Assembly: GCA_009885945.1 (NCBI GenBank)
Contig: VFJR01000013.1
Span: 1 to 64,000, forward strand
Source: Anaerolineaceae bacterium
Lineage (GTDB): Bacteria; Chloroflexota; Anaerolineae; Anaerolineales; Villigracilaceae
DNA: 64,000 nucleotides
Direction of reading: 5' to 3'
This document shows positions 47,600-60,177 of this stretch, piece after piece; positions within the stretch are counted from its first letter, which is position 1, and each line of letters begins with the position of its first letter. The notes beneath the pieces were generated by a model. That model saw nothing but the letters and a program-made list of their open reading frames with translations, had not been told where the DNA came from and did not search any database. The translations under genes were made by a program, and so were the position numbers.

Positions 47600-48787
47600 A
47601 TGGGCAATAGCTACGAAGGTAAAAAATGTTTTGTGATCATGCCGTTCGGAAAGAAAACTGACCTAGACGGAAAACCTATTGATTTTAACGATGTGTATGA
47701 TAACTTCATCAAACCTGCAGTGGAGTCAAAAGAACTTGGCATAGATTGTATACGCTGTGACGAGATCATTGACACGGGCTCGATCCATTTCAAAATGTTT
47801 CACCACATCTTTGAATCAGACGCCGCGATTGTGGACATCACATCCTTGAATGCAAATGTTTTTTACGAATTAGGGATTCGGCACGCGCTCAAAAAACATA
47901 CCACTTTAGTTATCCGCAAGGCTGGCACCCCTACTCCATTCAACATCAACGGGTTAACTATAGTAGATTACAACTTGGATACCCCCGAAGACGTGGAAAA
48001 AAGCAAAGAAACGATTCGTAAATTCATCAAAAATGGCTTGGAGAACCAAAATCCAGACAGCCTAGTTCATCAAGCACTGACAAATCTTAAGATAGAGCAA
48101 AAATTTGACAAGATCGACACGCTGGACACCTACATGTATAAGCTGTCCAAAGCCGCCACAAAAGAAGCATCTACGGTAGAAATCGGCATCATCACGGGCG
48201 ATATCCAAAATATAAAGATCGTAGATGTTTGGGTAAACCCCGAAAACACAGACCTGCAAATGGCGCGCCACTTTGACCGTTCCATCTCGGGCACCATTCG
48301 CTACCTTGGCTCCGAAAGGAATCGAGCTGGGCGTGTGACTAATGATATTATCGCGAATGAACTGATAAAAGAGGGCGAGGCAAAGGCTGGAGTTGTAATC
48401 CCCACTGGTTCTGGAAAACTAAAAGATTCTCACAATGTCAAAATGATATTCCACGCCGCTTCAGTAGAAGGGCAAATGGGAAATGGCTATACACCCATCC
48501 CTGATACTAGCATGTGTGTTCGCAATGCGCTTAACTTAATGGATGAAAAAGAGATGGCAAAAGAAGAATTACACTCCATTCTTTTCCCATTAATGGGCAC
48601 AGGCACCGCTAAAGTTGATCCTACAGAAGCGGCTAAGAAATTAATCGATGCCGCGCTGGCGTATGCCGTGGTAAACCCTAAGACCAAGGCGCAAAAAATA
48701 TACTTTCTGGCATTCAACGAACAGGACTTGGAGATTTGTAAACACATCTTCGACCATGATGAGCGGGTTGAGCTGATAAAAAAATAA
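47600..48787 (+). CDS. Deoxyribosyltransferase-like (TIR/DRHyd-related) + macro domain fusion protein
   Basis: The 395-residue soluble protein has two parts. N-terminal (about 8-145): 'CFVIMPFGKK', 'DCIRCDEI', 'SDAAIVDITSLNANVFYELG' and 'IRHALKK', the pattern of nucleoside 2-deoxyribosyltransferase-like/DRHyd domains, with Glu90 as the expected nucleophile. C-terminal (about 193-390): a macro domain recognised by GDI at 200-202, VNPEN at 212-216 in place of VNAAN, 'VVIPTGSG', 'KMIFHAASV' and 'HSILFPLMGTGT'. Such parts act on NAD+, nucleotides or ADP-ribose. It lies 22 nt after the NUDIX gene. Function as a defence or stress effector is inference. Confidence 0.82.
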   Translation: MGNSYEGKKCFVIMPFGKKTDLDGKPIDFNDVYDNFIKPAVESKELGIDCIRCDEIIDTGSIHFKMFHHIFESDAAIVDITSLNANVFYELGIRHALKKHTTLVIRKAGTPTPFNINGLTIVDYNLDTPEDVEKSKETIRKFIKNGLENQNPDSLVHQALTNLKIEQKFDKIDTLDTYMYKLSKAATKEASTVEIGIITGDIQNIKIVDVWVNPENTDLQMARHFDRSISGTIRYLGSERNRAGRVTNDIIANELIKEGEAKAGVVIPTGSGKLKDSHNVKMIFHAASVEGQMGNGYTPIPDTSMCVRNALNLMDEKEMAKEELHSILFPLMGTGTAKVDPTEAAKKLIDAALAYAVVNPKTKAQKIYFLAFNEQDLEICKHIFDHDERVELIKK

Positions 48788-51918: not shown

Positions 51919-52845
51919 ATGAAAAAGATAAACTTAATCCTTCTTGCTGTAATTTATATAACAGCTTGCTCCCCGCAAACATTAGCTACTCCAACATTAA
52001 CACCCCTTCCATCTGAAACTCTAAGGCCAGTTCCCACAAGTACAATTACCTTAAGACCAACGATATCATTTACACCAACTGCCACTCTTGAACCTTTGGG
52101 GGTAACTTTTGATATAAGCAGTGATATTCCAATGCAAGATATTGAAGAGATTCAAACTGGTCTTGAATTAGCAAGGATTTATTTGAGAGATTATCTAGGG
52201 GGCGATATATCTTCTGACTTTCAAAAAGAACTCACAATAAGAATCGTAGCCACAGGTTTAGGAGATCAATCTCTGGGTGGTGGCGGAAATTGCTGCACAT
52301 TTTCAAGAAACGAAATGTATATCTTTTTCGATGTTAAGCATATGCACTGGGCACGAACCGAGAAACCTAACCTATTTAGAGCGTTGTCACATGAACATAT
52401 TAAAATTGCTGTTCATGAATATATACATGCTTGGCAAAGTTCATTAGGTTGCTTTAGAAATGACTACAATCCACTTGGTAATTGGATGAATGAAGGTATA
52501 GCTGAATATATTGCATATGATATAACGATTCAACAAGGCATAATAACAAAGGCAAATGTTAAAATTTTTATGTATAACGCTGCTAAAAATACTGGTGAAC
52601 TAGGCCTGCCTCTACAGGCACTTGAAGCCAATGGATTGGGGTTAGTTTGGCCAGGTCATGTAGGTTATTTAGCAGTTGATTATTTAATTACTGAAAGTAA
52701 ACAAAGAACACTTTCTTTAAGGCTGATTTGTGAACAAATTGCAAATGGCGAAACAATAGATAATGCGTTTAAGAATGTTTTTGGAATAACAAGAAAAGAT
52801 TCCTATGTTAAGTTTGCAGAATATATAAAAACGTTAGTGCCATAG
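51919..52845 (+). CDS. Exported gluzincin-type metallopeptidase lipoprotein
   Basis: The 308-residue protein has a signal sequence with lipobox ITAC (Cys17), a T/P-rich linker (22-60) and a peptidase domain. The zinc motif H166-E-Y-I-H170 is followed by 'NWMNEGIAEYIAYD' (Glu192 or Glu196), matching the M1/peptidase-MA-like arrangement. It should cleave peptides outside the cell. Base composition is more AT-rich than its neighbours, which suggests later acquisition. A GGGA site precedes the ATG. Family name is uncertain; the catalytic motif is clear. Confidence 0.85.
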   Translation: MKKINLILLAVIYITACSPQTLATPTLTPLPSETLRPVPTSTITLRPTISFTPTATLEPLGVTFDISSDIPMQDIEEIQTGLELARIYLRDYLGGDISSDFQKELTIRIVATGLGDQSLGGGGNCCTFSRNEMYIFFDVKHMHWARTEKPNLFRALSHEHIKIAVHEYIHAWQSSLGCFRNDYNPLGNWMNEGIAEYIAYDITIQQGIITKANVKIFMYNAAKNTGELGLPLQALEANGLGLVWPGHVGYLAVDYLITESKQRTLSLRLICEQIANGETIDNAFKNVFGITRKDSYVKFAEYIKTLVP

Positions 52846-52858
52846 TATATTTAAGTAT

Positions 52859-52952
52859 AAGGATTTTCATGCTCAATCTCAAAACCACCCCATTTCACGA
52901 AAGAACCTCCGCGTTGTGCCAGCCGCAGAATTGTAAGGCTATTACGCAGTGA
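52859..52952 (+). pseudogene. Relic of the 5' end of a gcvT-like gene
   Basis: AAGGATTTTC then ATG 52869 starts a short frame that encodes MLNLKTTPFHERTSALCQPQ before losing homology and hitting TGA at 52950. The intact gcvT-like gene 1 kb downstream begins MIELRTTPFHERTSALCQPQ, and the ribosome binding sites also correspond. Synonymous changes (TTT/TTC, CAC/CAT, GCG/GCA, TTG/TTA) show the two copies are diverged, not a fresh duplication. Homology stops at CCGCAGAATTG, where the promoter of the next genes begins. Confidence 0.85.
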
Positions 52953-52998
52953 TATAATGACGGAAATAAGCCGTCATGTGACGGTAAATTGCCGTCAC
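52931..52998 (+). promoter_or_regulatory. Promoter and tandem operators of the wHTH-nucleotidyltransferase pair
   Basis: TTGTAA (52931-52936), 16 nt, TATAAT (52953-52958). Overlapping and following the -10 are two adjacent 21-bp inverted repeats: ATGACGG-N7-CCGTCAT (52957-52977) and GTGACGG-N7-CCGTCAC (52978-52998). This is the expected layout for autoregulation by a dimeric winged-helix protein. The -35 lies within the gcvT relic. Confidence 0.78.
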
Positions 52999-53011
52999 AA
53001 GGAATTAACTT

Positions 53012-53341
53012 ATGCTTGAAACGCTTCTTGGTTCAAAAAATGCAGAACGAGTCTTGATTTATATCTTTGCCCGTGAAGAAGGCTATGCCCGCGAGGTCGC
53101 AAGTTACTATACAACGGATTTAAAATCCATTCAAAAGCAAATGGATAAGTTTGAAAAAAGCGGCGTATTGACAAGTCGTTCGGTGGGGCGTACGCGTCCG
53201 TATGTGTTCAATCCGCGTTACCCCTTTTTGGGCGAGTTGAAAGCCCTCCTTGAAAAGGCGTTGTCGTTTTATCCCGCGAAAGAAAAAGAAGAATTGACAA
53301 TGAACAGGCGCAGACCGAGAGCCAAAGGAAAAAGTTTGTGA
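53012..53341 (+). CDS. Winged-helix DNA-binding protein (probable antitoxin/autoregulator)
   Basis: The 109-residue protein has an N-terminal winged helix: 'LLGSKNAERVLIYIFAREEGYAREVA' (split), then recognition helix 'DLKSIQKQMDKFEKSGVL', wing 'SVGRTRPYVFNPRYPF'. The C-terminal tail is basic (RRRPRAKGK). It overlaps the nucleotidyltransferase-like gene by 4 nt (GTGA). The pairing and the inverted repeats upstream match toxin-antitoxin pairs in which a wHTH protein represses its own operon. AAGGA precedes the ATG. Confidence 0.82.
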   Translation: MLETLLGSKNAERVLIYIFAREEGYAREVASYYTTDLKSIQKQMDKFEKSGVLTSRSVGRTRPYVFNPRYPFLGELKALLEKALSFYPAKEKEELTMNRRRPRAKGKSL

Positions 53342-53868
53342 AGCATATCAAGAATATGAGTCAGGTTGAACTGGCAGCATATCTTCAAAATGCTTTAGAA
53401 AAAGAAAATATTCAGGTTGTGCTTTCAGGCGGAAGTGCGGTTTCGTTTTACAGCAGTGACAAGTATGTTTCAAAAGATTTAGACTTGATCAATACCCATT
53501 TCACCAAACGGAGCAAAATTAAGTCTGCAATGCATACGTTGGGTTTTCAGGAGCAGGGACGTTATTTTGTAAACGCTGAAACAAAATTCTTTGTGGAATT
53601 TCCCGATGGCCCGCTTTCGGTTGGGGAAGAACCAGTGAAAGAAGTAAGCCAGTTTAAATTGGCAACGGGAACTCTGCGGGTAATCTCACCAACGGACTGT
53701 GTAAAAGATAGGTTGTGTGCCTTTTATTTCTGGAATGACCAGCAAGGACTGACTCAAGCGGTCTTGGTAGCAAAAAATCAGAGTGTGGATTTGAAAGAAA
53801 TCAAACGTTGGTCAAAAACTGAAGGCAAGGAAAAAGAATATGAAATTTTCAAAAACAAACTTAATTAA
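53338..53868 (+). CDS. Nucleotidyltransferase-fold protein (AbiEii/MenT-like; probable toxin or partner)
   Basis: The 176-residue protein starts at GTG 53338. It has the nucleotidyltransferase motif G31-G32-S33 followed by D47-L-D49 in 'KYVSKDLDLI', and 'VISPTDCVKDRLCAFY' in the second half, typical of AbiEii/DUF6036-type proteins. Such enzymes transfer nucleotides to tRNA or protein, or are inactive relatives. The third acidic residue is plausibly in 'TKFFVEFPDG'. Together with the wHTH gene it forms a two-gene module; toxicity is inferred from family and arrangement, not shown. Confidence 0.8.
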   Translation: MKHIKNMSQVELAAYLQNALEKENIQVVLSGGSAVSFYSSDKYVSKDLDLINTHFTKRSKIKSAMHTLGFQEQGRYFVNAETKFFVEFPDGPLSVGEEPVKEVSQFKLATGTLRVISPTDCVKDRLCAFYFWNDQQGLTQAVLVAKNQSVDLKEIKRWSKTEGKEKEYEIFKNKLN

Positions 53869-53877
53869 GGAATCTTT

Positions 53878-55074
53878 ATGATCGAATTACGAACCACCCC
53901 ATTCCATGAAAGAACCTCCGCATTATGCCAGCCGCAGAATTGGCGCAAGTGGGCGGGATATTTCGCCGCAGGCTCATACGAGCACACACTTGACCGCGAG
54001 TATTGGGCAATTCGCAACTCGGCGGCGTTGATCGATGTCTCGCCGTTGATCAAGTATGTCATCAAAGGCAAAGATGCGGCGGCGTTATTGCATCGCGTTA
54101 CTACACGTGACATCTACAAGATGAAGGTCGGGCAGGTTGCATACACTGGTTGGTGTGACGAAGAAGGCAAGATGATTGATGATGGAACCGTTTCACGATT
54201 AGATGAAACCACATTCCGTTTAACTGCCGCAGAACCAAATTTACGCTGGCTATCTATGAATGCCGTCGGCATGGAAGTTGAAATCACCGAAGTCACTGAC
54301 GATATCGCGGCATTAAGTTTTCAAGGTCCAAACACGCGCAAAGTTTTAAATAAAATTACCAAGAAGTCCGTTGACGAGTTGAAATATTTCCGTTTAATGA
54401 AAAACAAAATCAACGAGATGGAAATCACCGTTTCACGCACAGGGTACACGGGCGATCTTGGTTATGAAATTTGGATGGATGCGAAAGACGCGCTGAACAT
54501 TTGGGATGCGTTAATGAATGCGGGCGCGGATTATGGCATCACGCCCGTTGGAATTCTGGCGTTGGATATGACGCGCGTTGAAGCGGGTTTGTTTATGCTG
54601 GATGTAGATTACACCTCCGCAAGTCATGCGTGGATCGAATCGCAAAAATCATCACCCTTTGAGTTGGGATTGGATTGGACGGTGAATTTAGACAAGCAAG
54701 GTTATTTCGTTGGCAGGCGTGCATTAGAAAAAGAAAAACGCGAAGGCTCGGTGTGGAAGATGGTTGGCTTGGAAGTGGATTGGGTTGGCATGGAAAAAAT
54801 ATTTAAACAAGTTGGCTTGCCGCCCCAAATCCCTGGCATGGCAGTTCGTGGAAGTCTGCCAATTTTTGTAGGAAATGTTCAAGTTGGATATGCTTCTACG
54901 TCAACATGGTCACCTGTGTTAAAAAAATATATCGCGCTCGCCCATTTGCAGAAACCTTATTTTGAAGTCGGCACGGATGTAAGAATGGAAATTACAGTCG
55001 AGCATCACCGTCAGCACGCGCCTGCTAAAGTGGTCAAACTTCCGTTTTATGAACCTGAATGGAAAAAACGTTAG
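53878..55074 (+). CDS. Glycine-cleavage T-protein (aminomethyltransferase) family, folate-binding
   Basis: The 398-residue protein has GcvT domain features: 'AALIDVSPLIKYVIKGKDA', 'GKMIDDGTVSRLDETTFRLT', 'SRTGYTGDLGYEIW' and 'ALDMTRVEAGL', followed by the C-terminal barrel with 'GYASTSTWSPVLKKYIALA'. It uses tetrahydrofolate to accept a one-carbon unit from an aminomethyl or N-methyl donor. The absence of gcvH/gcvP nearby and the adjacent flavoproteins suggest a demethylase rather than the glycine cleavage system. AAGGA precedes the ATG. A diverged relic of its 5' end lies upstream at 52859. Confidence 0.88.
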   Translation: MIELRTTPFHERTSALCQPQNWRKWAGYFAAGSYEHTLDREYWAIRNSAALIDVSPLIKYVIKGKDAAALLHRVTTRDIYKMKVGQVAYTGWCDEEGKMIDDGTVSRLDETTFRLTAAEPNLRWLSMNAVGMEVEITEVTDDIAALSFQGPNTRKVLNKITKKSVDELKYFRLMKNKINEMEITVSRTGYTGDLGYEIWMDAKDALNIWDALMNAGADYGITPVGILALDMTRVEAGLFMLDVDYTSASHAWIESQKSSPFELGLDWTVNLDKQGYFVGRRALEKEKREGSVWKMVGLEVDWVGMEKIFKQVGLPPQIPGMAVRGSLPIFVGNVQVGYASTSTWSPVLKKYIALAHLQKPYFEVGTDVRMEITVEHHRQHAPAKVVKLPFYEPEWKKR

Positions 55075-59961: not shown

Positions 59962-60177
59962 TTATGCAGGAACTGCGATATATTCCGCAGAGGAGTTTGC
60001 CTCAGGGATTGGCAATTTATCTTCAATCATTCCCTGAATATTCATTTCAACAGCTTCGTGCATATTCCGCTCGGTTTCTTCACGGGTTTTGCCCGTCGCC
60101 ACACAACCTGTCAAATCAGGTGAGTAGGCTGAATAATTATTTTTAGTTTTTTCGATTACGATAAGAAAGCGATACAT
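59962..60177 (-). CDS. HicB-like antitoxin-family protein without HicA
   Basis: The 71-residue protein is a single HicB-type (UPF0150) domain: 'FLIVIEKTKNNYSAYSPDLTG', 'GKTREETERNMHEAVEMNI'. The C-terminal DNA-binding part found in many HicB proteins is missing. No HicA gene is next to it; it is instead the third gene of a BrnT-BrnA module (7 nt after brnA-like). It might be an added antitoxin or an orphan. Confidence 0.85.
   Translation of the reverse strand: MYRFLIVIEKTKNNYSAYSPDLTGCVATGKTREETERNMHEAVEMNIQGMIEDKLPIPEANSSAEYIAVPA

Follow-up and report, generated by a model that had tools for sequence, protein, structure and literature searches.

We propose that two back-to-back 21-bp inverted repeats in a 64-kb stretch of DNA from an Anaerolineaceae bacterium (hereafter the window, 64,000 nucleotides in full) act as operator for a two-gene module under its own control, in which the first gene (A) would encode the repressor, the second gene (B) a MenT1-like nucleotidyltransferase, and residues 38 and 39 of A would set bases 6 and 7 of each operator half-site. 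We put the probability of this reading at roughly 85 %. The comparative evidence strongly suggests binding of the repeats by A and, with it, repression of the A-B operon; its strongest part is the covariation between A and the repeat letters, which points to A rather than to another protein or an RNA structure.

A tandem inverted repeat over the promoter of gene A

Direct reading of the sequence confirmed the coordinates and letters of both repeats (IR1 and IR2, Table 1), which a sequence-only reading had described as two adjacent 21-bp units, the first overlapping TATAAT. In both, the 7-bp arms are perfect and the spacers are 7 bp long, the period is exactly 21 bp, and IR1 indeed shares 2 bp with the −10 hexamer. 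The range marked in that reading, 52931-52998, extends from the −35 element through the end of IR2. The −35 is weak, the promoter matching the consensus at 10 of 12 positions, and transcription would be expected to start near 52965, in which case the repeats would span roughly −9 to +33.

Table 1. Features of the A-B module and its flanks in the window
Feature	Position	Strand	Description	Basis
Remnant of GcvT-like gene	52869-52937	+	Copy of the gene's first 23 codons (78% aa identity, tblastn); upstream flank of the module	Alignment
−35-like element	52931-52936	+	TTGTAA, 16 bp 5' of the −10; inside the GcvT remnant, a duplicate of part of the gene downstream	
Extended −10	52950-52951 (TG), 52953-52958 (TATAAT)	+		Sequence
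Operator unit 1 (IR1)	52957-52977		ATGACGG-N7-CCGTCAT, ATGACGGAAATAAGCCGTCAT	Read from sequence; kept in homologues
Operator unit 2 (IR2)	52978-52998		GTGACGG-N7-CCGTCAC, GTGACGGTAAATTGCCGTCAC	Read from sequence; abuts unit 1
RBS-like element	52999-53003	+	Putative; AAGGA, 8 nt 5' of the A start codon	Sequence
Gene A	53012-53341	+	109-aa winged helix, ArsR/SmtB-like fold, presumed autorepressor	
Predicted recognition helix of A	53120-53161	+	Codons 37-50, LKSIQKQMDKFEKS	Structure model
A codons 38-39	53123-53128	+	Lys-Ser; covary with bases 6-7 of the half-site	Covariation
Gene B	53338-53868	+	176-aa pol-beta-type nucleotidyltransferase; GTG start, 4-bp overlap with the A stop codon	
GcvT-like aminomethyltransferase gene	53878-55074	+	Intact; downstream flank of the module	

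Such a pair is hardly expected by chance: while perfect 7-7-7 inverted repeats occur 13 times in the 64 kb (5.6 expected under a Markov-1 model), only one pair adjoins at exactly 21 bp, and none did so in 60 simulated Markov-1 windows. Throughout the 3.43-Mb genome, the exact 19-mer TGACGG-N7-CCGTCA is confined to IR1 and IR2, and the five best sites with one mismatch have neither a second unit at 21 bp nor an overlap with a −10. A regulon extending beyond the module was considered and rejected, as the genome holds no further exact operator.

Conservation of both repeats upstream of homologous pairs had been put forward as a check on the operator, and a tandem pair with the 21-bp period indeed precedes most homologues in many phyla. 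Two sites at this period reached a four-half-site agreement score of at least 16 in 92 of the 122 loci examined, the 99% null of shuffled sequence being 14. Among periods from 14 to 35, 21 was dominant, with a score of at least 10 in 64 of 91 non-redundant loci, against 10-42 of 91 at other periods and 4.4% in shuffled sequences. In 53 of the 92 loci, a TATAAT-like hexamer shares 2 bp with the first half-site (a TG is present in 39 of the 53), and 13 of the 92 carry a third unit. The spacers of the units are A+T-rich (80-86%), and the operator lies in a fixed relation to the start of A, at about 42-90 bp. A few homologues, such as L026, L045, L149 and L171, showed no clear array. The half-sites themselves vary among lineages, including ATGACGG, ATGACGT, ATGACCT, (AT)AACCA, ATAACCG, ATGTCAG, TTGATCT and more.

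Covariation between the recognition helix and the half-sites

Gene A matches no Pfam or NCBIfam family at cut-off. Its AlphaFold2 model, built from an alignment of relatives, is confident (pLDDT 86.5), and the predicted fold resembles ArsR/SmtB repressors such as BigR, HlyU, CzrA and SmtB, with Z about 10 to several members over 81-86 residues. Unlike these, however, A lacks the metal- or thiol-sensing Cys/His residues (it contains 0 Cys and 0 His) as well as a Pfam ArsR match. The predicted recognition helix opens with the motif L-X-X-I-Q, which contains residues 38-39, and the identity of these two residues goes along with that of the half-site: KS with GACGG, KP with GACGT, DP, SP, TP or AP with GACCT, YA, YG or FG with ACCA, ST with ACCG, and PDS with TGTCAG.

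Counted over untied loci of the discovery set, residue 39 was followed by base 7 in 71 of 71 cases: Ser or Thr with G (28/28), Pro or Gln with T (30/30, two ties left out), and Ala or Gly with A (13/13); likewise, Lys38 went with G at base 6 in 26 of 26. Among columns 25-69 of A, residue 39 was the most informative on base 7 (1.47 of 1.65 bits), residue 38 on base 6 (1.21 of 1.64 bits), and residue 27 on base 3, where Arg27 goes with G. The rule had been noted before loci of two further classes were fetched, and in this later set 12 of 15 loci fitted, namely 10 of 13 untied loci for Pro with T and 2 of 2 for Ala or Gly with A, two Ser loci being tied; for L259, whose best-scoring register is shifted, base A was confirmed by eye only, in the ACCA register. 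The failures have C at base 7 and belong to a YRP clade (L264-L266) and a PAP locus (L250). Furthermore, loci with Arg38-Ser39 are mixed, and a plasmid homologue (L297) combines Ser39 with T. Given these failing or mixed clades, we take the code for a strong tendency and not for a law.

The changes were placed on a tree of B, which does not draw on the columns of A. Along it the residue-39 class changes 20 times, and so does base 7. There are 17 path-disjoint pairs with unlike residue 39; every one of them is also unlike at base 7, 16 of them as predicted. When strongly supported branches only are considered, four pairs agree, none opposes and one is neutral, too few for a significance test. 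Both conservation and co-varying letters thus speak for the tandem operator of a winged-helix protein that had been read from the window.

Could the repeats serve some other purpose? Control at the RNA level, by hairpins in the 5' leader acting through attenuation or on the ribosome site, would have in its favour that each repeat folds strongly (−22.7 kcal/mol for the 58-nt leader) and that palindromic covariation is equally expected of an RNA stem. However, as unit 1 overlaps the −10, the transcript would contain only part of it, an RNA stem needs neither alike units, nor exact adjoining at 21 bp, nor triple repeats such as the 13 three-unit arrays, and the dependence of half-site bases on residues 38-39 of A would be left unexplained; with no Rfam match near the repeats either, we hold hairpins to be very improbable. 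Marks of mobility, i.e. transposon ends or an integration site, come to mind since the module is inserted between two genes with short partial gene copies at its flanks, but the repeats lie at one end of the module only, in fixed relation to the −10 and the A start, they evolve together with the recognition helix, and the module is without a recombinase gene, which leaves this idea with next to no credit. Closer to the operator reading is the question of register, as a single A dimer might lie across the central GTCAT/ATGAC junction together with the flanking half-sites, instead of one dimer on each repeat. Conservation of the outer dinucleotides peaks at this junction, with AT at half-site 2 in 43 of 53 loci and at half-site 3 in 37 of 53, against 11 of 53 at half-site 4. 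Against it, arrays start with a left and finish with a right half-site, also those of three units, and outer half-sites are no more deviant than inner ones. Two further comparisons favour neither register: the cores of neighbouring half-sites are separated by 9 bp over the junction and by 12 bp inside a unit, which decides for neither, and co-deviation within specificity classes does not tell the two pairings of half-sites apart. On balance we find the junction arrangement rather unlikely, and each 21-bp repeat is likely one dimer site.

The nucleotidyltransferase partner and known systems

Like A, gene B falls short of every Pfam and NCBIfam cut-off. The predicted structure (AlphaFold2, alignment of relatives) is confident at a pLDDT of 92.2 and closest in fold to MenT1 (8an5; Z 13.2, rmsd 3.8, 160 residues, VIA-align), followed nearly as closely by the antibiotic-modifying enzyme ANT(2'')-Ia (Z 12.1). 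A profile of 35 B proteins searched against PDB sequences retrieved no MenT chain at E<=1. Invariant in these 35 proteins are LSGG, S45-x-D47-x-D49, E87, K123-D124-R125 and W132/D134, and because these include the catalytic residues, B presumably retains catalysis. In MenT1 (Rv0078A), the active site T39/D41 and K137 is spaced like S45-x-D47 and K123 of B, residues matched by inference and not by superposition. MenT toxins act by adding nucleotides to tRNA. From the fold, the conserved catalytic residues and the pattern of gene loss described below, B is probably a nucleotidyltransferase toxin held in check by A.

The sequence-only reading had seen the operator as in line with the autoregulation of AbiE-type modules, a likeness that holds for regulation and not for membership. 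As in AbiE, a two-gene operon with the repressor first pairs a winged-helix protein with a nucleotidyltransferase and carries an inverted-repeat operator in the promoter. For instance, in the Streptococcus agalactiae AbiE system the AbiEi protein occupies a pair of 23-bp inverted repeats, separated by 3 bp, on its own promoter, and Rv2827c of M. tuberculosis Rv2827c/Rv2826c binds four inverted repeats (PMC3985639, PMC7319586). The present repeats are instead 21 bp long and gapless (23-3-23 bp in AbiE). AbiEi moreover has a C-terminal antitoxicity domain that the 109-aa A lacks, and A gave no Pfam, NCBIfam or PADLOC match to AbiEi at E<=1, nor was one listed for any of 42 A members; we therefore do not file the module as AbiE. 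As to AbiEii, motifs I and II (GG-x14-DLD) and the lysine/arginine motif III are conserved in B, whereas the +DxxD pentad is not evident; the PADLOC profile of AbiEii gave E 0.006, and the Pfam AbiEii profile did not match this 176-aa protein, which is most like MenT1.

MenAT1 in turn has the MenT fold in common with B, but its antitoxin MenA1 is a 68-aa helical protein without a DNA-binding domain and MenAT1 is not autoregulated (PMC10435456, PMC11375011); none of the described MenA antitoxins is ArsR-like (PMC11375011). Another candidate is PDC-M05A, part of a candidate defence system of PADLOC, whose N-terminal part is matched by all 42 A proteins (best 9e-13). This profile is 201 positions long, of which A covers 7-92 only, its winged-helix part. 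PDC-M05 pairs a nucleotidyltransferase with a HEPN protein (PMC12988326), whereas A matches no nucleotidyltransferase part and B is modelled as a nucleotidyltransferase, not as HEPN. A separate small ORF of this genome matches PDC-M05A positions 109-159. The Makarova 2009 survey lists ArsR-COG3832 and MNT-HEPN two-gene modules, and an ArsR-like/nucleotidyltransferase pair is not among them (PMC2701414); both are mobile two-gene operons like A-B, yet neither joins an ArsR-like protein to a nucleotidyltransferase. Among open-licence papers we found no description of an ArsR-like winged helix paired with a B-type nucleotidyltransferase. Apparently, A-B works like AbiE yet is a different, undescribed module.

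Distribution, gene loss and a model for the module

Of 152 genomes of the same family, 43 contain the A-B pair, and B relatives are encoded in 349 stretches of other species' genomes, spread over Chloroflexota, Spirochaetota, Kiritimatiellae/Lentisphaerae, Geobacter relatives and others, as well as on plasmids of Leptospira, Sulfurospirillum, Sulfurimonas and Bdellovibrio. Leptospira plasmids such as L298 and L301 carry distant A-B pairs, and in L298 a 21-bp-spaced direct repeat, TTGACTAAAAAGTAG, lies 5' of A. Phage records (50,697) contained no B homologue, and one was found in viral contigs. The order A then B is kept in nearly all homologues and the 4-bp overlap in most. Within the family, all 43 genomes with B have A, 10 have A only, and B without A was never seen; in several relatives, a frameshift, stop or truncation has disrupted B next to an intact A, and at five solo-A loci from which B was lost the operator is still present, many of the relatives being metagenome assemblies. 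B is broken or lost beside an intact A (and an intact operator where checked) at L039/L081, L040/L082, L042/L084, L043/L085 and L046/L086; A stands alone at L175, L181, L188, L190, L198 and L052:9513-9839.

This pattern bears on whether B is a toxin at all. A might instead repress a useful, non-toxic enzyme, such as a nucleotidyltransferase acting on antibiotics or metabolites, without being an antitoxin. ANT(2'')-Ia and LnuA are nearly as near to B in fold as MenT1, detoxification genes are typical targets of ArsR-type regulators (PMC2701414), and the antitoxin of MenT1 does not autoregulate (PMC11375011). It would however sit uneasily with such a role that A occurs without its partner and the partner never without A, and that B is patchy, mobile and frequently broken; the 109-aa A has no apparent inducer-binding site, and the layout with the repressor first, the 4-bp overlap and the double operator is AbiE-like. 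We therefore regard a useful enzyme as an unlikely but serious alternative to the toxin reading.

In the window, the module has been inserted between a cupin gene and the GcvT-like gene, which lie side by side in the module-free relatives L275, L276, L279-L281, L284 and L287. The remnant upstream of the module repeats, in diverged form, the GcvT-like gene's first 23 codons (52869-52937, compared with the intact 53878-53946). Similarly, at L175 (G131) the solo A is preceded by GcvT-like sequence and followed by a complete GcvT start, and L058 (G027) offers a second case of insertion with a partial gene copy at the flank: the stretch after B (about 1606-1749) repeats part of the cupin 3' end, and the intact cupin gene lies 5' of A. 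Between cupin and module, the window also holds a lipoprotein gene with a weak metallopeptidase-like match (51919-52845). As part of a related gene occupies the same place in L277, where the module is missing, the gap between cupin and GcvT seems to be an insertion hot spot. Elsewhere in the window, a small HicB-like ORF (59962-60177, minus strand) is possibly part of a HicAB toxin-antitoxin pair, and a 395-aa protein (47600-48787) that begins with a CFVIMPFGK stretch, and whose C-terminal half is possibly macro-like, may act as a sensor or effector linked to nucleotides.

How, then, might the module work? We envisage that A, most likely as a dimer, would sit on both adjoining repeats from one side of the DNA, 21 bp being two helical turns. 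Bound A would cover the −10 and the transcription start and block RNA polymerase, so that the operon would be shut off and both proteins kept low, to open once free A drops; B would be coupled translationally to A through the 4-bp overlap. We infer that A binds and represses in this way and neutralises a toxic B. The start of the recognition helix would read the bases, residue 39 addressing base 7 and residue 38 base 6. Since this code diverges among lineages, paralogous modules would carry different operators, including the two modules of this genome: that of the window has Lys-Ser with GACGG, and that of contig C105 (L032) has Ser-Thr with ACCG. Their differing residues and operators would fit selection against cross-talk.

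Through natural covariation that spans many phyla, our analysis links an operator to its protein, and it offers a simple DNA-recognition code for a small winged-helix family without a curated name. The module likely adds a toxin-antitoxin type to those known: its MenT1-like nucleotidyltransferase has an ArsR-like repressor for partner, and not AbiEi or MenA. In a broader view, which we favour by a modest degree, A-B would represent an undescribed mobile ArsR-like/MenT-like family crossing phyla, whose code at residues 38 and 39, of nearly one residue to one base, would yield insulated operator-repressor pairs and permit several modules per cell without cross-talk. Co-changing pairs of base and residue are, besides, a ready source of orthogonal repressors.
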